A DNA stretch of 64,000 nucleotides from an uncultured Alphaproteobacteria bacterium (lineage in GTDB: Bacteria > Pseudomonadota > Alphaproteobacteria > Rhodobacterales > Rhodobacteraceae): contig CABZEW010000003.1 in assembly GCA_902524845.1 (NCBI GenBank), forward strand, positions 1 to 64,000, in the 5' to 3' direction. The translations under genes were made by a program, and so were the position numbers. The notes beneath the pieces are model-generated. The model did no database searches, had not been told where the DNA came from, and worked only from the letters and a program-made list of their open reading frames with translations. Shown piece after piece: positions 13,028-45,493 of this stretch; the stretch's first letter is position 1; the number at the start of each line of letters is the position of its first letter.

Positions 13028-14320
13028 TCATTTATGGAGTTCCCATGAATTTAGTATACGTGGAACCTTTAAACTTTCTCCAATAAATTTCGAAATTTGC
13101 AACAATTTTTCATCTTCTCCAAAACGACCGACAATCTGAATGGAATAGGGTAAATTGTTTTTATTGATTCCTGTCGGAATAGCAATAACTGGCAGTCCTA
13201 TGTAACTCCAAATAGAATTCATTCTGAAATCTCCAGTTGAGTCAATTCCAAATGGAGCCACATCTGGTGCAACGGGAGCAATCCAAATATCAATTCCCTT
13301 TTTTATCATTAACATTTGGAGAAGCTTTCTATCTTTCCTTGACCTATTAGTTAAAGAAGTGAAGTCTTCAGGAGAAATTTTTTTGCCTGCCTCAATCGTT
13401 TTTCTTACTATAGGTCCATATAATTCTTTATATCTCTGAAACCAGACTGAATGAACTTTATAAAGTTCAGCAAATGTAATTTCGTCAATTTTACGATTAT
13501 AGCTTTCTATATCTCTTACCAACTCCAAATTTTTAATATAAAATTTTTCTTTTAATAGTTGAATGGTATCGAGGAATTGTTTCAAAACGTTTGGTTTAGA
13601 TAAGTTAATGTACGAACCTTCAGGAATACCAATAGAGATATTCTTAATTACCTTAGGCTTTTGAAAACGCCAACCGTCAACTATAAGAGGCAATACTTTT
13701 TCCAACACATCTAAATCACTTGTGCATAAACCAACGTGATCCATTGAATTTGAAAAAAGTAATACGCCATCCCTACTTATACGACCAAAGCTTGGCTTAT
13801 ACCCAACAACACCGCAATATCCTGCTGGCCTGATCACTGAGCCAGAGGTCTGAGTTCCAATAGCAATATCACAAAATCCTGCAGCAACTGATGCTCCTGA
13901 CCCACTAGACGAACCACCAGGAGTATGGAAAAGGTTACGAGGATTTCGAGTTTCACCTGGATCAGATACTGCAAACTCAGCAGTAACGGTCTTCCCCGCA
14001 AATATTGCTCCAGCATTTAATAACTTTGAAACGCAACTAGCTTGGGATCCTTTAAATAATTCAGAAGGTAGTAAAGAACCACATCTCGTTGGATAACCAT
14101 CAACATTAATAATATCTTTCACCCCAAATAATAGGTCTTTTAAAGGAAATTTAATGCTTGCTTTAGATTGGTTTTTGGTCCAATCCTCAAGAATTCGATC
14201 ATTGTCGAATGTACCTTTAACAAAAGACTTTACCCTGCCTTCATATTTATTAATGTGCTCTATTCTTTTTTTCATAACTAGTGGTTGTAATTTTGCACAA
14301 AGACCGAGCGGTTTATTCAA
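13028..14320 (-). CDS. Amidase signature family hydrolase
   Basis: A 430-residue cytosolic amidase. The Ser-cisSer-Lys triad can be placed at Lys68 (FGVKDIINVDG), a Ser in GGSSSGS (residues 135-141) and nucleophile Ser161 in TQTSGSVIRP. These match the amidase-signature family; the substrate cannot be read from sequence. It lies 37 bp upstream of, and codirectional with, a ureohydrolase gene. A regulator, ABC transporter and second ureohydrolase follow on the other strand. A role in degrading an imported amide or guanidino compound is inferred from that context. Met16 is an alternative start. Confidence 0.87.
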   Translation of the reverse strand: MNKPLGLCAKLQPLVMKKRIEHINKYEGRVKSFVKGTFDNDRILEDWTKNQSKASIKFPLKDLLFGVKDIINVDGYPTRCGSLLPSELFKGSQASCVSKLLNAGAIFAGKTVTAEFAVSDPGETRNPRNLFHTPGGSSSGSGASVAAGFCDIAIGTQTSGSVIRPAGYCGVVGYKPSFGRISRDGVLLFSNSMDHVGLCTSDLDVLEKVLPLIVDGWRFQKPKVIKNISIGIPEGSYINLSKPNVLKQFLDTIQLLKEKFYIKNLELVRDIESYNRKIDEITFAELYKVHSVWFQRYKELYGPIVRKTIEAGKKISPEDFTSLTNRSRKDRKLLQMLMIKKGIDIWIAPVAPDVAPFGIDSTGDFRMNSIWSYIGLPVIAIPTGINKNNLPYSIQIVGRFGEDEKLLQISKFIGESLKVPRILNSWELHK

Positions 14321-14357
14321 TCAATTATTAAAGTACGGAACAGGAGGTGCGCTTTGT

Positions 14358-15326
14358 TTACTTACTATCATAGTAACCAGCCCTAACCATAGCACCAATA
14401 AAATTACAAATAAGTCTCTCTGCATGAATCGCTGTGGTATTTCCTTTTTCAAAAGAAGGTGATATTTCCACTAAATCAAACCCTATAACCCTTCCTTTCT
14501 TCACTATTCCATGGACTAATTCCCTTATTTGCAACCAATTTAACCCACCAGGAGTAGGTGCATTAACTGCTGGCATTATTGTTGGATCCATGCCGTCAGC
14601 ATCAACTGTCATGTAAAAATTTACATCATCTGGTATTCTTTCAAGTATTGCTTTTATACCTAAATCGTGAACTTCATACGCACTAATGAGATTAGCTCCA
14701 TATGCATTTGCGTCATCATACTCTTGCTGCCTTCCGCTTCCTACACCCCTCAATCCAATTTGATATATAGAAGAGATTGATTTTAATTCGGAGGCTCTCT
14801 TTATTGGACTAGAATAACCTTCTTTTTCACCATTTACCTCATCTCTCCAATCCATGTGAGCATCTATTTGAATTAGGACGACAGGTTTATCATCAGGTAT
14901 TGCTCTCATTATTGGAATGGGTATCCCATGATCGCCGCCAATACAAATAAGTGTCGCACCCGAGTCAAAAATCTTTTTTGCTACCTTTTCAGCTCTTCTA
15001 TAATGTTCCCTTGGATCCCTAAAATCTGCTGTAACATTTCCGCAATCAACAATTTTAATGTTTTTATTATTTAACAATGGTCCTCCAAGATCCCAATCGA
15101 AATGTTTTAAGGTTCTTGGCTCATCCCAAGCAGCATCTTGAGCATTTTGTCTTAACATATCTGGTGCGATGCTTTGATCGTTAGATAATTCATTAGGATA
15201 ATATGGCAAACCATAAGGGACGCCTAAAATAACTATATCTGCGTCTAAATTATCTAAATCTAAATTTAAAGGAAACCCTAACAAGCCTCTTGAGTTTCCC
15301 TTCGGTAGTTCTGTCAAAGGCAGCAT
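14358..15326 (-). CDS. Ureohydrolase (agmatinase/arginase family), copy 1
   Basis: A 322-residue binuclear manganese hydrolase releasing urea from a guanidino compound. Metal ligands are visible: His133 (GGDHG), Asp155/His157/Asp159 (DAHMDWRD) and Asp242/Asp244 (VDADGMDP). The loop after the last ligands, PTIMPAVNAPTPGG, differs from the usual PxxAPGTGTPxPGG. Substrate preference may therefore not be agmatine. It shares a strand with the amidase and lies divergent from the regulator at 15560. A paralogue is at 19436-20392. Confidence 0.87.
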   Translation of the reverse strand: MLPLTELPKGNSRGLLGFPLNLDLDNLDADIVILGVPYGLPYYPNELSNDQSIAPDMLRQNAQDAAWDEPRTLKHFDWDLGGPLLNNKNIKIVDCGNVTADFRDPREHYRRAEKVAKKIFDSGATLICIGGDHGIPIPIMRAIPDDKPVVLIQIDAHMDWRDEVNGEKEGYSSPIKRASELKSISSIYQIGLRGVGSGRQQEYDDANAYGANLISAYEVHDLGIKAILERIPDDVNFYMTVDADGMDPTIMPAVNAPTPGGLNWLQIRELVHGIVKKGRVIGFDLVEISPSFEKGNTTAIHAERLICNFIGAMVRAGYYDSK

Positions 15327-15559
15327 AATGCTTATTTTCTCACTTTCAATTTTTCAAACCTGCGTTCCTAAATTTTCTTAGTATAATTTAATAGCATACA
15401 AACAGTACTTCGTATTCCAATTACGAGAGTTAATTAATTTTAGCAAAACTTAAATAACTTGACTTAAATTATAATTTATACACTAAATGTTAATTAGTCT
15501 GCTACAATTGTATTTTGTTATTAATTCTGAGGTTTGTGGTCATAGAATAAGGAGGGAAG

Positions 15560-16129
15560 ATGGCTCCAGCAAATAGTATTCAAGTTAAATCACCTAATCA
15601 CCAAGAAAGAAGAGACCCACGGTTAAGAAACGGATCAAAAAGCACGGATTTTCGTTTCAACCCTCTACAAGATAAAAATTTTATAAAAAACAACGAAATT
15701 ATGGCTGGGCTCGCATTAGGAGAACTAGAAATGTGGATTCATAGATTCATCGGAAAGCCAAGCCAGATTGAAGAATTTGAAGATATTGGAACTTGGTGTA
15801 ACAAAAGTAACGCTAGAGTGTATTTTATGAACCTTATTTTTTATAATTATTTTGGCGGCCTAGTAACAACTAAAAGTATAGTGAGTAATCAAGTTATGAT
15901 TACTAGGAAGGCAGCCAGTGATATGGTAGACAGTGCTGTTGAAATAGGAATTGTTGAATATTATTCGGATAAAGAATTCAGAGCAACGGCTAAATATATT
16001 GAATATTACTTAAGCTACACAAGACTGGTAGCAAAGTCATACATTCCCAAATTAACTAAATTATTGACACAATTAAATGCAATAAACAATGTACCTAACG
16101 CAATGGAAACATTCAAAATCAGAGAATAG
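15560..16129 (+). CDS. Putative winged-helix (MarR-like) transcriptional regulator
   Basis: A 189-residue soluble protein. Residues about 90-165 look like a winged helix: TTKSIVSNQVMITRKAASDMVDSAVEIGIVEYY places a recognition helix before a wing. The arrangement resembles the regulator at 28386-28841 (SDFSRPTVNSTIHDALELRYIEE). It has a strong ribosome-binding site (AAGGAGGGAAG) and lies divergent from the ureohydrolase-amidase pair and upstream of the ABC transporter. It probably controls that cassette. Assignment rests on predicted fold and context only. Confidence 0.6.
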   Translation: MAPANSIQVKSPNHQERRDPRLRNGSKSTDFRFNPLQDKNFIKNNEIMAGLALGELEMWIHRFIGKPSQIEEFEDIGTWCNKSNARVYFMNLIFYNYFGGLVTTKSIVSNQVMITRKAASDMVDSAVEIGIVEYYSDKEFRATAKYIEYYLSYTRLVAKSYIPKLTKLLTQLNAINNVPNAMETFKIRE

Positions 16130-16157
16130 TGAGTAACCATATGGTTGTTTACTCACT
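16128..16157 (+). promoter_or_regulatory. Inverted repeat AGTGAGTAA...TTACTCACT
   Basis: Nine-base arms (16128-16136 and 16149-16157) overlap the stop codon of the regulator gene and precede the transporter operon by about 200 bp. No T-run follows, so it is a poor intrinsic terminator. It could be an operator for the adjacent regulator or an mRNA 3' stem. Function is not established. Confidence 0.45.
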
Positions 16158-16351
16158 ATACATGTGAAAAAAAAAACGTTTTATTTCTTTTTTCCAGTGT
16201 TACTTTTAAAGCATGAGCAAAATTTCTAGCTCTTAAAAAGGGGAGTTGTTGCATTGGATGACCTGCGTTTATCTAGAATTTGATATCAGCGGAGCCTCAA
16301 GCAAGAAGATTCGACAAAAAATGAAATTTAACTTTTTAAGGAGATAATTAA

Positions 16352-17197
16352 ATGAATAGTAATAAAGTGTTAGCATTTTTACGATTACTTGTGTCTTTGT
16401 CCATAATTTTCACTGGATCAAGCGTTTTTGCGGAAACTACATTTGAAAAAATCAAACGAACCGGAAAAGTTACGGTTGGAACAGAGGCTGCCTTCCCTCC
16501 ATTCGAATTTGTGGAGGACGGTAAAATAGTTGGTTATGGAAAAGATATACTTGATTATATTGTAGCGGACATGAATGTTGAGTTAAATCAACTAGATCTA
16601 CCTTGGCAAGGAATTCTTCCTGGAGTTCTAGCGGGCAAATTTGACTTTGTTGCTACCAGTGTGAGTATCCGTACTGAAAGAGCAAAAAAATATGCTTTTA
16701 CTGTCCCTATAGCTGAAGGCACTAACTGGGTTATGAAACGTAGTGGTGATGCTTCAATAAACAGCCCAGATGATTTGTCAGGTAAGGTTGTGTGCACTCA
16801 ACTTGCTTCCGGTAGCGAAAAAGCTACTAAAGAATGGGAAGAAGATATGAAATCCAGAGGCTTAAAAGGTTTTAAGGAACTAAAATTATTCACAGCGCAC
16901 CCAGAAGCTACCTTAGCTCTTGCAAATGGAACTTGTGATGCTCAGACTCAAACTGTTCCAAACTTAGCTGTAGTGTCAAAGAAGCAAAAAGGAGTATTCG
17001 AATTAGTAGGTCCAATTACTGACAAAACCTATATGGCTTGGGTTACTAGACCGGAAGATACTGATTTGAGAGATTATATAAGCTCAAAGATACTTGAAAT
17101 GCGTGATAAGGGCCTAATAGATGAAATACAAGACAAATGGTTTGGGTTTAGAATGCCTATTCCGAGCGAAGGTCATCTGCCTGAAGGCGCCCTTTAG
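16352..17197 (+). CDS. Amino-acid-type ABC transporter substrate-binding protein
   Basis: A 281-residue periplasmic protein with an N-terminal signal peptide (hydrophobic FLRLLVSLSIIFTGSSVFA, cleavage after FAE). The SBP family 3 core begins at GKVTVGTEAAFPPFEFVEDG and includes the ligand-binding Arg region SIRTERAK. Family members bind polar amino acids or related cations. It heads an operon with two permeases, an ATPase and a ureohydrolase. That suggests an arginine- or guanidino-like ligand, an inference from gene order. A stem-loop follows the stop. Confidence 0.88.
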   Translation: MNSNKVLAFLRLLVSLSIIFTGSSVFAETTFEKIKRTGKVTVGTEAAFPPFEFVEDGKIVGYGKDILDYIVADMNVELNQLDLPWQGILPGVLAGKFDFVATSVSIRTERAKKYAFTVPIAEGTNWVMKRSGDASINSPDDLSGKVVCTQLASGSEKATKEWEEDMKSRGLKGFKELKLFTAHPEATLALANGTCDAQTQTVPNLAVVSKKQKGVFELVGPITDKTYMAWVTRPEDTDLRDYISSKILEMRDKGLIDEIQDKWFGFRMPIPSEGHLPEGAL

Positions 17198-17208
17198 TTA
17201 CAAAAAGT

Positions 17209-17245
17209 CGTAGGATTGTCTCGACGCCTTACAGGCAATCCTACG
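17209..17245 (+). terminator. Stem-loop between binding protein and permease genes
   Basis: Perfect 10-bp arms CGTAGGATTG (17209-17218) and CAATCCTACG (17236-17245), followed by a short TTT. Such partial terminators or 3' stabilisers after the binding-protein gene commonly raise its expression above that of the permeases. Only the stem is seen directly. Confidence 0.6.
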
Positions 17246-17273
17246 GTTTGATTATCATTGCAACTTTAATAAA

Positions 17274-17936
17274 ATGAAATTTGATATAAGCTATACCTTA
17301 GAAGCTTTCCCCAGGCTTTTAGAGGGTGCATTCATCACATTACAAGTTGCAATTTTAGGCTTTACTTTAAGCGTACTCCTTGCAACAACAATAACTGTCG
17401 CAAGGACCTCTCTTAATTCAAAGATTTTTAATTCTATACTTGCCTTCTATATCAGTTTCATAAGAGGCACACCTATTCTGGTTCAAATTTTTCTTGTGTA
17501 CTATGTTCTCCCAGTTTTTGGTTTAAATCTCGGACCGTTTACAGCAGGTATTGTAGCAATAACTTTAAACAGTGCGGCATTTGTCACAGAAATCTTAAGA
17601 GGTGGATTAGCCTCTGTGCCAGTAGGTCAATTTGAAGCCGCGAAATCACTTGGGATTTCTGGATATGCTTTATGGAGAAAAATAATTCTTCCTCAAACAT
17701 TCATAACCTCAATTCCACCATTAGTGAATGAATTTACTATGGTTCTAAAAGCCACGGCTTTACTTTCTCTAATCACTGTTGTTGAGTTAATGCGCGTTTC
17801 ACAACAAATTTATAGTGCAAATTATCACCCCGTTGAGGTCTTAAGCGGTGCTTTTGTGATTTATTTTTTAATGTGTTTCGTTGTAAGCCGAAGTTCTGTC
17901 TTTTTGGAAAACAGATTTAAAGTGAAAAGAGCTTGA
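17274..17936 (+). CDS. Amino-acid ABC transporter permease, first subunit
   Basis: A 220-residue His/Glu/Gln-type permease with about five membrane helices. The EAA-loop motif is QFEAAKSLGISGYALWRKIILPQ, which docks to the ATPase (core residues EAAKSLGIS...ILPQ). FIRGTPILVQIF is also typical of this family. It lies eight bases before its partner permease at 17944, with which it would form a heterodimer. Confidence 0.9.
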   Translation: MKFDISYTLEAFPRLLEGAFITLQVAILGFTLSVLLATTITVARTSLNSKIFNSILAFYISFIRGTPILVQIFLVYYVLPVFGLNLGPFTAGIVAITLNSAAFVTEILRGGLASVPVGQFEAAKSLGISGYALWRKIILPQTFITSIPPLVNEFTMVLKATALLSLITVVELMRVSQQIYSANYHPVEVLSGAFVIYFLMCFVVSRSSVFLENRFKVKRA

Positions 17937-17943
17937 AAAATTT

Positions 17944-18654
17944 ATGCTAGAGTATCAGATATTTTTTGACTATACACCAATGCTTTTATTAGGCTTCTGG
18001 CTTACTATAAAAATTGTTGTTTGTGCAATTGCATTAGGTATACCCTTGGGCTTGTTTTTGGCTCTTGGAAGAAGATCTAAATTTTTGATTGTTAGTTTTT
18101 TATCAACAAGTTTCATCGAAGTATTTAGAAACACGCCATTTATAATACAAGTCTTTTTATTTTATTATGTCTTGCCTTTTTATGGGCTCAAACTTTCGGC
18201 AGAGTATGTAGGTGTTCTTGCACTAGCCGCTTTTGGAGGCGCATATTTTGCGGAAATTATCCGAGCTGGTATAGATGCAGTACCAAAGGGTCAGCTAGAA
18301 AGCGCCAGAGCTATAGGGATGACTGATTGGCAGGCAATGAGAAACGTAATATTACCACAAACTTTATCAATAGTCATTCCACCTTTAACTAATCAAACCC
18401 TTACCCTGATAAAGGAGTCAGCTATATTATCTACTATCACGGTTCATGAATTAACGATGACTGGTTTAATGGTTCAGGGAGAAACCTTTAGACCATTTGA
18501 AGTGTTTATTATGGTTGCGCTTCTGTATTGGGCTTTGAATGAAACTGTTGCAACGCTAATGAGAAAGTTTGAACAAAGTATCAAAAAGAAAAGAAACCCT
18601 ACTTCTGACAGTAATTCAAGCTCAACGGTAGAAAAAAGTGAAGGTACGAAATGA
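17944..18654 (+). CDS. Amino-acid ABC transporter permease, second subunit
   Basis: A 236-residue permease of the same family, with VFRNTPFIIQVFLFYYVLP and the EAA loop QLESARAIGMTDW. A Ser/Lys-rich cytoplasmic tail (KKKRNPTSDSNSSS) follows the last helix. Its stop overlaps the ATPase start by four bases (ATGA), indicating translational coupling. Confidence 0.9.
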   Translation: MLEYQIFFDYTPMLLLGFWLTIKIVVCAIALGIPLGLFLALGRRSKFLIVSFLSTSFIEVFRNTPFIIQVFLFYYVLPFYGLKLSAEYVGVLALAAFGGAYFAEIIRAGIDAVPKGQLESARAIGMTDWQAMRNVILPQTLSIVIPPLTNQTLTLIKESAILSTITVHELTMTGLMVQGETFRPFEVFIMVALLYWALNETVATLMRKFEQSIKKKRNPTSDSNSSSTVEKSEGTK

Positions 18655-19439
18655 CCTCAAACTTCTTAGAAATTAAAGGGCTACACAAAAGATTTGGTAA
18701 CATTGCTGCTTTAAATAATGTCTCTCTAAATGTATCAAAGGGGGAAGTAATTTTTGTAATTGGGCCAAGCGGCTGCGGGAAAAGCACTCTTTTGCGAGCA
18801 GTTAATTGGCTAACGCCTCCAGATAAAGGTGAAGTATGGCTAGAAGGTGAGCTAGTAGGATCTTCCTCCTCTAAATTGACTATAAAGCAGTCCCAATTAT
18901 TGAATGGTTTCCGTGCTAGAATGGGAATGGTTTTTCAACAATTCAATGTTTGGCCTCATTTAAACGTATTAGAAAATGTGGTAAGAGCTCAATTGGTAGT
19001 AGCTAAAAGAAAGAGAGCTGATGCAGAGTCAACAGCTTTAAAGATTTTAGATCAAGTCGGCTTGCAAAACAAAATAGACGAATGGCCTGATCATCTTTCA
19101 GGGGGTCAAAAGCAAAGATTGGCTATAGCTAGAGCTTTGGCTATGGACCCTACATTAATGCTTCTCGACGAACCAACTTCTGCACTAGATCCTGAACTTA
19201 TAGGTGAGGTTTTGACGGTCTTAAAGCGGCTAGTAAATAACGGGATGACAATGTTAATAGTTACTCATGAATTAGGCTTTGCTTCCGAATTTGGTGATCG
19301 ATTACTATTTATGGATGGTGGTGAAGTAATCGAAGAAGGCCCCCCTAAAAAGATACTTACGATGCCTAAAACGAAGCGATTAAAAATGTTCTTAGAAAAA
19401 CTGGATGTTACTTCATTTAAAAAAGAGGAAAAATTATGA
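18651..19439 (+). CDS. Amino-acid ABC transporter ATP-binding protein
   Basis: A 262-residue ATPase that powers the transporter from the cytoplasmic face. Walker A is GPSGCGKST (residues 38-46), the signature LSGGQKQRLAIARAL, Walker B LMLLDEPTSALDPE and the switch His in IVTHELGF. Length is normal for the polar amino-acid class. It overlaps both the upstream permease and the downstream ureohydrolase by four bases, so all five genes form one coupled operon. Confidence 0.93.
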   Translation: MTSNFLEIKGLHKRFGNIAALNNVSLNVSKGEVIFVIGPSGCGKSTLLRAVNWLTPPDKGEVWLEGELVGSSSSKLTIKQSQLLNGFRARMGMVFQQFNVWPHLNVLENVVRAQLVVAKRKRADAESTALKILDQVGLQNKIDEWPDHLSGGQKQRLAIARALAMDPTLMLLDEPTSALDPELIGEVLTVLKRLVNNGMTMLIVTHELGFASEFGDRLLFMDGGEVIEEGPPKKILTMPKTKRLKMFLEKLDVTSFKKEEKL

Positions 19440-20392
19440 AAGAAAAACTTACAGCACCACCAAAAAAAGAGTTTCAAAGTTTTCACGATTTTCCGATCGT
19501 CACTGATTTAGATAATTTTGAAGCTGACATTGCATTTCTGGGCATACCTTTTGGAGATCCATATTCCATGGGCGAAGCTAGTAATGACCAAAGTACAGCT
19601 CCAACATATATAAGAAAATATTGTGAAAGAGCGTTACGGGGACTTGACAGATATGACTTTGATATCGGAGGGACCCTTTTAAATGGAGAAGATATTAAAG
19701 TTGTTGATTGCGGGGATGTTTTAGGAGAAGCAAAAGATGTGGCAGGAAATCATACTCGTTCTGAAAAGGCTGTGAGAAAAATTTTGTCTGCTGGAGCGCT
19801 GCCTATAATTTTAGGCGGTGATCATGCCATTCCTATTCCAGTTTTCAGGGCTTTGGAGGATCATGGGCCCATAACACTAATACAAGTAGATGCTCATATT
19901 GACTGGAGAGATGTTTTTCATGGTGTGCGCTTCGGTCTATCGAGTGTCATTAGAAGAGCTTCTGAAATGAATCATATTGACGAAATTTTTCAAATTGGTC
20001 TTCGATCGGCTGGTAGCGCTAGACCAGAGGAAACTCAAGCTGCTCTGGATTATGGCGCTAAATTAATTTCAGACATAGAACTTCAAGAGGTTGGAATGAA
20101 AGCTATTTTAGATCGAATTCCAGATGGACAAAATTATTACCTTACTATTGATGCTGATGGCGTTGACCCCACTATTATGCCTGCAGTTGCGGGGCCTGCC
20201 CCTGGGGGAGTAAGTTACTCTCAAATGAGAACGCTCATACAGGGACTGGTAAATAAGGGTAAGGTCTTGGGGATGGATATCGTAGAAATAACTCCAACGA
20301 AGGATATTAACGGGATTACGGCCATCACCGCTGGAAGATTTATATGCAATTTAATTGGTTCTGCTGTTCGAGCCGGTTATTTTAAAAAATAA
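19436..20392 (+). CDS. Ureohydrolase (agmatinase/arginase family), copy 2
   Basis: A 318-residue paralogue of 14358-15326 with the same metal ligands: His130 (GGDHA), Asp152/His154/Asp156 (DAHIDWRD) and Asp239/Asp241 (IDADGVDP). It shares the unusual PTIMPAVAGPAPGG loop. It is translationally coupled to the ABC ATPase, so it probably hydrolyses the imported ligand to urea and an amine. Agmatine, guanidinobutyrate or guanidine derivatives are all possible. Confidence 0.87.
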   Translation: MKEKLTAPPKKEFQSFHDFPIVTDLDNFEADIAFLGIPFGDPYSMGEASNDQSTAPTYIRKYCERALRGLDRYDFDIGGTLLNGEDIKVVDCGDVLGEAKDVAGNHTRSEKAVRKILSAGALPIILGGDHAIPIPVFRALEDHGPITLIQVDAHIDWRDVFHGVRFGLSSVIRRASEMNHIDEIFQIGLRSAGSARPEETQAALDYGAKLISDIELQEVGMKAILDRIPDGQNYYLTIDADGVDPTIMPAVAGPAPGGVSYSQMRTLIQGLVNKGKVLGMDIVEITPTKDINGITAITAGRFICNLIGSAVRAGYFKK

Positions 20393-43730: not shown

Positions 43731-44144
43731 TTAACTATACATTTGCGCAACAGCAGAAATAACTCCTCGTCTGTTCAAACTTTGATCGACTGACGAAGGC
43801 TCTAAGATCTTTTGCAAATAATCAACAGCAGTTTGCGGATTACAGTTTCCACACATAAAGACATCAATTGACGCAAAGTTACGTTCTGGCCATGTATGTA
43901 TACTGATATGACTTTCAGATAAAACAGTCACACCACTAACACCCATCCCCTCACCAAAAGGATGAAAATATGAATGTACAATGGAGGCGCCAGCCCTGAG
44001 CGCACTTTCTTCAATAGTCTTTTGAATAAAATCTAGATCGCCCATTCGCTCTACACCCCAAAAGTCAGCCAAAATATGACGTCCCGCAAACTGATCACCT
44101 GTCAAAGAACACATTGAGAAATAATCACTATCGAGATGGTTCAT
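43731..44144 (-). CDS. speD: S-adenosylmethionine decarboxylase proenzyme
   Basis: A 137-residue class 1B proenzyme that self-cleaves to give a pyruvoyl cofactor and makes decarboxylated SAM. The cleavage site is Glu77-Ser78 in LSESHISIHTWPE, with His83 and Cys98 (DVFMCGNC) completing the conserved processing and catalytic residues. It lies one base after speE and supplies its aminopropyl donor. A divergent paralogue is at 45041-45493. Confidence 0.94.
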   Translation of the reverse strand: MNHLDSDYFSMCSLTGDQFAGRHILADFWGVERMGDLDFIQKTIEESALRAGASIVHSYFHPFGEGMGVSGVTVLSESHISIHTWPERNFASIDVFMCGNCNPQTAVDYLQKILEPSSVDQSLNRRGVISAVAQMYS

Positions 44145-44145
44145 A

Positions 44146-45057
44146 TTATGCAGCCTCTTCTTTTTTATTTAATTTAGTATTAATGTCTTCTTCAATCCAT
44201 GGAGGAAGAATAAAAGATGCGCGATGCATTGCGGGACTGTAATGTTTAGTTCTAATGCATGCTTTTTTAAATCGTTGATCTATTTGTTCTAAATTTGGTA
44301 GCGACCAGGCCCTGTTTAGGGCTCCGAAGCCAAAGGTCATATAACCTCCATAATAGGTTGGAACTGCAGCAATATAGCAACTCGCATTCAGTCCCGCATC
44401 TTTTAGACAGCGCAGTGTGGTCCCAACTTCACCAGGTTGAAATTGAGGAACGCCTCCCTGCGTCGAGATCAAAGCATTTTCGTTAAGAATTTTAACAATA
44501 TTTTTATAAAATTCATGGCTGAATAGCTTTTCGCCTGGTCCTATTGGGTCAGTAGAGTCAATGATAACCGCATCAAATTTTAACTCTGTTTCTTGGACAT
44601 ATGCAAAAGCATCACCAACAATTAGCTGTACTCTTGAATCTTTGTAAACTTTACCAGCGTTATTTACACTTGGCATATGCTCTACACAGGCATCAACCAC
44701 ATGCTGATCAATTTCTACCATGACAACTCTTTTTACGCCTTTATGACAGAGAACCTCACGCAAAATCCCGCCATCGCCACCACCAACAATAAGGACATTT
44801 TCTGGGTTTTCATGAGAGAAAAGAGGCACGTGCACCATCATCTCTTGATAAACAAACTCATCACACTCTGTGATCTGAATAATCCCATCAAGGGTCAACA
44901 CGCGACCAAGTGAGTCATTTTCGTAAATTGCAATATCTTGATATTGGCTTTTACCCTCAAATAAAGTTCTACTTATCTCAAACCCCTGAAATGCCTTGCT
45001 GCCCTTAGAAGTGTAAATACTGTGAACATCTTCTATGAAATTAGGCCGCCCGTACAT
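44146..45057 (-). CDS. speE: Spermidine synthase
   Basis: A 303-residue aminopropyltransferase moving the aminopropyl group from decarboxylated SAM to putrescine. It shows LDGIIQITECDEFVYQEMMVH, VGGGDGGILREVL near residue 95, DAFAYVQ and IDSTDPIGPGEKLF near 165, all family motifs. Its start overlaps the end of the upstream speD-like gene by 17 nt, so the three genes are one operon. Confidence 0.94.
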   Translation of the reverse strand: MYGRPNFIEDVHSIYTSKGSKAFQGFEISRTLFEGKSQYQDIAIYENDSLGRVLTLDGIIQITECDEFVYQEMMVHVPLFSHENPENVLIVGGGDGGILREVLCHKGVKRVVMVEIDQHVVDACVEHMPSVNNAGKVYKDSRVQLIVGDAFAYVQETELKFDAVIIDSTDPIGPGEKLFSHEFYKNIVKILNENALISTQGGVPQFQPGEVGTTLRCLKDAGLNASCYIAAVPTYYGGYMTFGFGALNRAWSLPNLEQIDQRFKKACIRTKHYSPAMHRASFILPPWIEEDINTKLNKKEEAA

Positions 45058-45493
45058 CTTGAACCTCCTCAGTAAAATTCCTTACGCCATCTTTATCTTC
45101 CTTATGGAACCCACGGTCCATATTGTGCATATTGGCCTTGGCAGGACTGAAATATTTTTTACAAACCCCAAGAGCCACCTCAACATCGAAAGCTTTACAG
45201 GAGAAAACATCTATATATACCTGTCCTATATTTTCTGCAAAATGAGCAGCAATATTTGAAGTTTCAATCATCTGAAGTAAAGTATAGCCCGCTGCTTCAT
45301 AGGAGTGCGATGCAAAATGCTCAACTATAGGCTCACCATAGGCTATCATATCAATAGCTTCTACAAGCTCTTTACTCCAATTCAGGATGTTTTCTTTATC
45401 AGTCAGTAGCTTTTTAGGACAACCATTAAAGTCTAACACTAAATGCTGACCCCATGGAGCTCGAATCGGCTTAGTTTGATTCTGTGACGTCAT
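45041..45493 (-). CDS. Divergent SpeD paralogue, possible pyruvoyl-dependent amino-acid decarboxylase
   Basis: A 150-residue SpeD-family protein, first gene of the spermidine operon. Aligned to canonical SpeD it keeps the cleavage Ser (Ser79), His84 and Cys99 (IDVFSCK), but the scissile pair is Thr-Ser, not Glu-Ser. HTWPE is replaced by HFAEN, and the His after the Ser is Asn. Self-processing looks possible while the SAM pocket is altered. SpeD homologues have been reported to act as ornithine or arginine decarboxylases, which would feed speE. That activity is inferred here. Confidence 0.8.
   Translation of the reverse strand: MTSQNQTKPIRAPWGQHLVLDFNGCPKKLLTDKENILNWSKELVEAIDMIAYGEPIVEHFASHSYEAAGYTLLQMIETSNIAAHFAENIGQVYIDVFSCKAFDVEVALGVCKKYFSPAKANMHNMDRGFHKEDKDGVRNFTEEVQDVRAA

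Follow-up and report, generated by a model that had tools for sequence, protein, structure and literature searches.

A predicted pyruvoyl-dependent ornithine decarboxylase of the SpeD family at the head of an alphaproteobacterial spermidine operon

The window analysed here, a stretch of 64,000 nucleotides from an uncultured alphaproteobacterium (contig CABZEW010000003.1, positions 1 to 64,000), contains a three-gene spermidine operon. Its first gene, named speDC here, is very probably a duplicated and repurposed speD whose product, judging from its sequence, would act as a pyruvoyl-dependent ornithine decarboxylase supplying putrescine to the spermidine synthase SpeE. A first-pass annotation of this DNA had suggested that a SpeD copy has turned into a pyruvoyl-dependent decarboxylase making the diamine for SpeE. 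This suggestion is supported by the residue signature, the phylogeny, the operon, a gene fusion in a sister lineage and the fact that neither SpeA nor SpeC was detected. Ornithine and arginine had both been named as substrates; the same evidence narrows the choice to ornithine, and arginine keeps a lower probability owing to four ureohydrolases. The gene is a further example of an enzyme type described in 2023 and not a new kind of enzyme. The operon comprises the following features:

45041 to 45493, minus strand: speDC, proenzyme of the SpeD family and predicted L-ornithine decarboxylase of the pyruvoyl-dependent type (signature Gln74, Thr78, Phe85, Tyr93; domain profiles, alignment, tree)
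45257 to 45262, minus strand: predicted self-cleavage site Thr78-Ser79 (codons 78-79 counted from the ATG at 45493; aligned to T. maritima Ser63)
44146 to 45057, minus strand: speE, spermidine synthase, above the TIGR00417 and NF002010 cut-offs, with a GAGGAGG Shine-Dalgarno-like site inside speDC
43731 to 44144, minus strand: speD, canonical AdoMet decarboxylase with the motifs SESH...HTWPE (TIGR03330, 120 bits, cut-off 75.65)

The genes are arranged in the order speDC-speE-speD. speDC and speE overlap by 17 nt, and a single nucleotide lies between speE and speD. It had been stated that the SpeD paralogue heads the operon and that a canonical SpeD is encoded in the same operon; both statements are correct, the latter protein passing the TIGR03330 cut-off. 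Scans for promoters and terminators gave no more than in shuffled sequence. The nearest orthologues of speDC (81% identical) are found in Alphaproteobacteria bacterium MED-G56 (Rhodobacteraceae) and in the single-cell genome AG-426-E23; in these two genomes and in UBA981 the speDC-speE-speD operon is kept. Judging from these orthologues, the DNA most likely stems from a marine alphaproteobacterium related to Rhodobacteraceae. We consider speDC to be rare in the family, since a search of 292 genomes sampled from the order gave, outside the window's own genome, weak matches only (24 genomes, 24-34% identity). The weak matches that were inspected carry canonical SpeD motifs.

The open reading frame of speDC is intact and codes for a class 1b SpeD homologue of 150 amino acids. 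Residues 17-128 match the Pfam family AdoMet_dc with 75.9 bits (cut-off 25); for the NCBIfam AdoMetDC equivalog TIGR03330 the protein stays below the cut-off (44 versus 75.65 bits). In the alignment Ser79, His84 and Cys99 correspond to the catalytic residues Ser63, His68 and Cys83 of the T. maritima AdoMetDC, which have roles in self-processing and catalysis (PMC10407285). These three residues, already listed as kept in the first-pass annotation, are unchanged in all 60 aligned relatives. Compared with 24 canonical SpeDs, the glutamate at position -1 is replaced by Thr78, the histidine at position +1 by Asn80, and Ala-Glu-Asn stands in place of Trp-Pro-Glu. The glutamate before the serine and the proline are kept in all 24 canonical proteins, whereas speDC has Thr78 and, in the proline column, Glu87. 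The annotation was thus right about the threonine and the missing WPE motif. The asparagine to which it had also drawn attention is present but is not peculiar to this copy, being common to 21 of the 37 family members in the alignment.

Because a search of the PDB with the single protein sequence yielded no match and a profile of 60 sequences matched the T. maritima AdoMetDC weakly, fold comparison was used. The AlphaFold model of the protein (pLDDT 86.6) could be superimposed on the T. maritima AdoMetDC with a Z score of 17.1 and an rmsd of 1.8 over 115 residues. The matches of the fold comparison included the structures 5tvm and 5tvf, which relate to trypanosome prozymes. In trypanosomes inactive AdoMetDC paralogues serve as prozymes, and by analogy speDC could code for a catalytically dead partner subunit regulating the canonical SpeD. 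Degraded SpeDC domains known from Lentisphaerota fusions would also fit such a role (PMC10407285). However, speDC is under purifying selection. Its dN/dS is approximately 0.09-0.10 relative to the two nearest orthologues (AG-426-E23 and MED-G56), which rules out a pseudogene; speE and speD, computed against AG-426-E23, are in a similar range. A dN/dS of about 0.1 together with the invariant Ser79, His84 and Cys99 (60 of 60 relatives) indicates that the catalytic site is maintained, and a dead partner subunit is therefore highly improbable.

SpeD homologues which became pyruvoyl-dependent L-ornithine decarboxylases, termed SpeDC, have been described (Li et al. 2023, PMC10407285; PMC9992855), so that the reports of such homologues mentioned in the annotation can be traced to a published class. 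SpeDC proteins are recognised by Gln, Thr, Phe and Tyr at four diagnostic positions of their central part (PMC10407285). The window protein has all four in that order, i.e. Gln74, Thr78, Phe85 and Tyr93, the columns being assigned from residue identity and order. All four residues are present in 33 of the 37 family members and three of them in the other four members; none is found in the 24 canonical SpeDs. As the threonine is one of the four diagnostic residues, the Thr-Ser cleavage site is a feature of the SpeDC class.

In the phylogenetic tree the SpeDC side is split from every canonical SpeD with support of 100/99, and the window protein is situated on the SpeDC side. There its group includes, besides many homologues from phages, one from the Spirochaetota, in a tree that contains no biochemically tested SpeDC by name; membership of the class was judged from the published residues, the published gene contexts and two borderline phage proteins, phiN3 and HTVC115P. 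Among the relatives two of these contexts were recovered, namely a position before nspC in Thiomargarita and a position between speD and speE in Leptospira. The finer branching is uncertain because so few alignment columns are available.

Both borderline proteins branch close to the base of the SpeDC side. phiN3 SpeD contains three of the four residues (Gln, Phe and Tyr) with Asp instead of Thr at position -1; HTVC115P has the Thr-Ser site and lacks Gln, Phe and Tyr. phiN3 SpeD is reported to be a true AdoMetDC, which restored spermidine in E. coli without speD, and a Sinorhizobium phage AdoMetDC has been placed inside the ornithine decarboxylase clade (PMC9992855). With phiN3 adjoining the SpeDC clade in our tree, it could be argued that speDC is a second, divergent AdoMet decarboxylase boosting the supply of decarboxylated AdoMet. 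We regard this as very unlikely. The operon already contains a canonical speD, the window protein scores below the AdoMetDC cut-off, and it lacks the glutamate and the proline that are invariant in the canonical SpeDs. Moreover, when separate SpeDC genes were introduced into a speD deletion strain, none gave spermidine back (PMC10407285).

For an ornithine decarboxylase of the SpeDC type the following pathway can be proposed. The proenzyme would fold as a class 1b AdoMetDC and would cleave itself between Thr78 and Ser79, by which Ser79 would be converted into the pyruvoyl group. This group, together with His84 and Cys99, would decarboxylate L-ornithine, the probable substrate, to putrescine. 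The product of the canonical speD would provide decarboxylated AdoMet as aminopropyl donor, and the speE product would join putrescine and the aminopropyl group to yield spermidine. By this route three adjacent genes could lead from ornithine and AdoMet to spermidine without a PLP-dependent decarboxylase.

The annotation had asked whether PLP-type SpeA and SpeC are lacking from the genome. In the source draft genome (1.95 Mb, 74.4% complete) neither was found; the sole PLP decarboxylase of the alanine racemase fold is LysA, and no OKR_DC_1 protein was detected. As the assembly is incomplete, a PLP enzyme could be missing from it; SpeA and SpeC were, however, not found in the related genomes MED-G56 and AG-426-E23 either, where LysA is again the one enzyme of this fold and a search for OKR_DC_1 came up empty. 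Likewise, two genomes of a sister lineage (apparently 75% and 69% complete) which bear the gene fusion described below yielded no PLP-dependent decarboxylase for ornithine or arginine.

These gene inventories also bear on the question whether the protein could be a pyruvoyl-dependent arginine decarboxylase (SpeDA). In that case a ureohydrolase of the genome would convert agmatine to putrescine or aminopropylagmatine to spermidine; aminopropylagmatine is also made by most spermidine synthases (PMC11107197). The arginine route is chemically possible since the genome contains four ureohydrolase-family genes, one of which (L004) exceeds the agmatinase cut-off (187 versus 174 bits) and has a counterpart in MED-G56 (L187). 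No agmatine deiminase was found in the genome. In addition, the HTVC201P protein, an arginine decarboxylase, has been placed inside the SpeDC clade (PMC10407285). On the other hand, the HTVC-type homologue HTVC115P is without Gln, Phe and Tyr, whereas the window protein has all four diagnostic residues. None of the four ureohydrolase genes is part of the operon. Two of them, both below the agmatinase cut-off, are located elsewhere in the window:

14358 to 15326, minus strand: ureohydrolase below the agmatinase cut-off
19436 to 20392, plus strand: ureohydrolase below the agmatinase cut-off

They flank an amino-acid ABC transporter, which suggests a role in catabolism. The region from 13028 to 20392, which also encodes an amidase, looks like a locus by which a guanidino compound is taken up and degraded. 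Neither a ureohydrolase nor an agmatine deiminase was matched in the two fusion-bearing genomes, which is suggestive of ornithine as substrate. The lack of a route from agmatine to putrescine has served as a guide for choosing SpeDC candidates and is not a property of the enzyme; in M. petrolearia SpeDC and SpeB occur together (PMC10407285). Overall, an arginine decarboxylase appears unlikely.

The fusion genes mentioned above are single open reading frames in two alphaproteobacterial MAGs of the sister lineage:

L051, 4965 to 6227: SpeDC-SpeE in a single open reading frame
L052, 4989 to 6221: SpeDC-SpeE in a single open reading frame

Both fusions are in frame and show the SpeDC signature in the SpeD-family domain, and next to the fusion each locus has a free-standing speD as well as another speE. 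The two fusion proteins are just 72% identical and come from two MAGs, ruling out an assembly artefact. They are also not of the known Pelagibacter type, in which a SpeD domain is joined to an aminopropyltransferase, as the SpeD domain of such fusions is canonical: those from two genomes of another family of the class have the motif AESH...HTFPE, and the published aminopropyltransferase fusions carry AdoMetDC (PMC11107197, PMC12803844). No report of a SpeDC-SpeE fusion was found in the searchable literature, outside which most papers in subscription journals lie. From the overlapping genes and the fusion we tentatively propose that the pyruvoyl-dependent ornithine decarboxylase and SpeE form one physical unit, an arrangement that we consider possible, though somewhat short of probable. 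In the window the unit would arise from co-translated overlapping genes; in the sister lineage a bifunctional SpeDC-SpeE would lead from ornithine via putrescine to spermidine, and after self-cleavage the segment with the pyruvoyl group would be carried by its SpeE portion.

The SpeDC proteins of Anaerolinea thermophila, Ca. Atribacteria and Ca. Sumerlaeota (SpeD2) share with the window protein the four diagnostic residues and the catalytic Ser, His and Cys, and they likewise represent a second speD beside speD and speE where SpeA and SpeC were not found (PMC10407285). They differ in gene order, as speDC of the window comes first and overlaps speE. No alphaproteobacterial SpeDC is listed in the abstract or the tables of that study, and the words Alphaproteobacteria and Rhodobacter were not found in its text. 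In the SpeD-SpeDC fusions of Desulfotignum phosphitoxidans and Ca. Omnitrophica (PMC10407285) a SpeDC domain is also joined to a partner of the spermidine pathway; in contrast, the genes of the window are separate, and the fusion partner in the sister lineage is SpeE and not SpeD. The AdoMetDC-aminopropyltransferase fusions of Ca. Pelagibacter (PMC11107197) resemble L051 and L052 in having an N-terminal SpeD-family domain on an aminopropyltransferase, but in fusions of this type from the two genomes of another family this domain is canonical, whereas in L051 and L052 it bears the signature of SpeDC. The SpeDA of the pelagiphage HTVC201P type (PMC9992855) belongs to the same broad clade, and its relative HTVC115P also has a Thr-Ser site but, as noted, not the remaining signature.

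Alphaproteobacteria, with a probably marine group related to Rhodobacteraceae, join the bacteria which appear to have swapped a PLP-dependent ornithine decarboxylase for a small enzyme with a self-made pyruvoyl group. The database name S-adenosylmethionine decarboxylase would mislabel such genes, and with the SpeDC-SpeE fusion a spermidine pathway of two fused steps becomes open to experiment.

Several other members of the SpeD family were encountered. A gene on a Leptospira interrogans replicon (L231, 991-1857), situated between speD and speE and named S-adenosylmethionine decarboxylase in its annotation, codes for a long N-terminal extension followed by the SpeDC signature. SpeDC-like genes are also present in Chlamydiae MAGs (L057-L061), and no decarboxylase of the alanine racemase fold was found in the three genomes searched. 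A homologue beside speE in the Microcystis phage MaAM05 was rejected as a SpeDC because it lacks the signature. In a gammaproteobacterial MAG (L158, 826-1878) two SpeD-family domains are arranged in tandem, the second with KGFH in place of ESH, like degraded fused copies. On viral contigs, 534 stretches encode SpeDC relatives (group L067-L144), several of them with an adjacent canonical speD (for example L082, L111 and L118).
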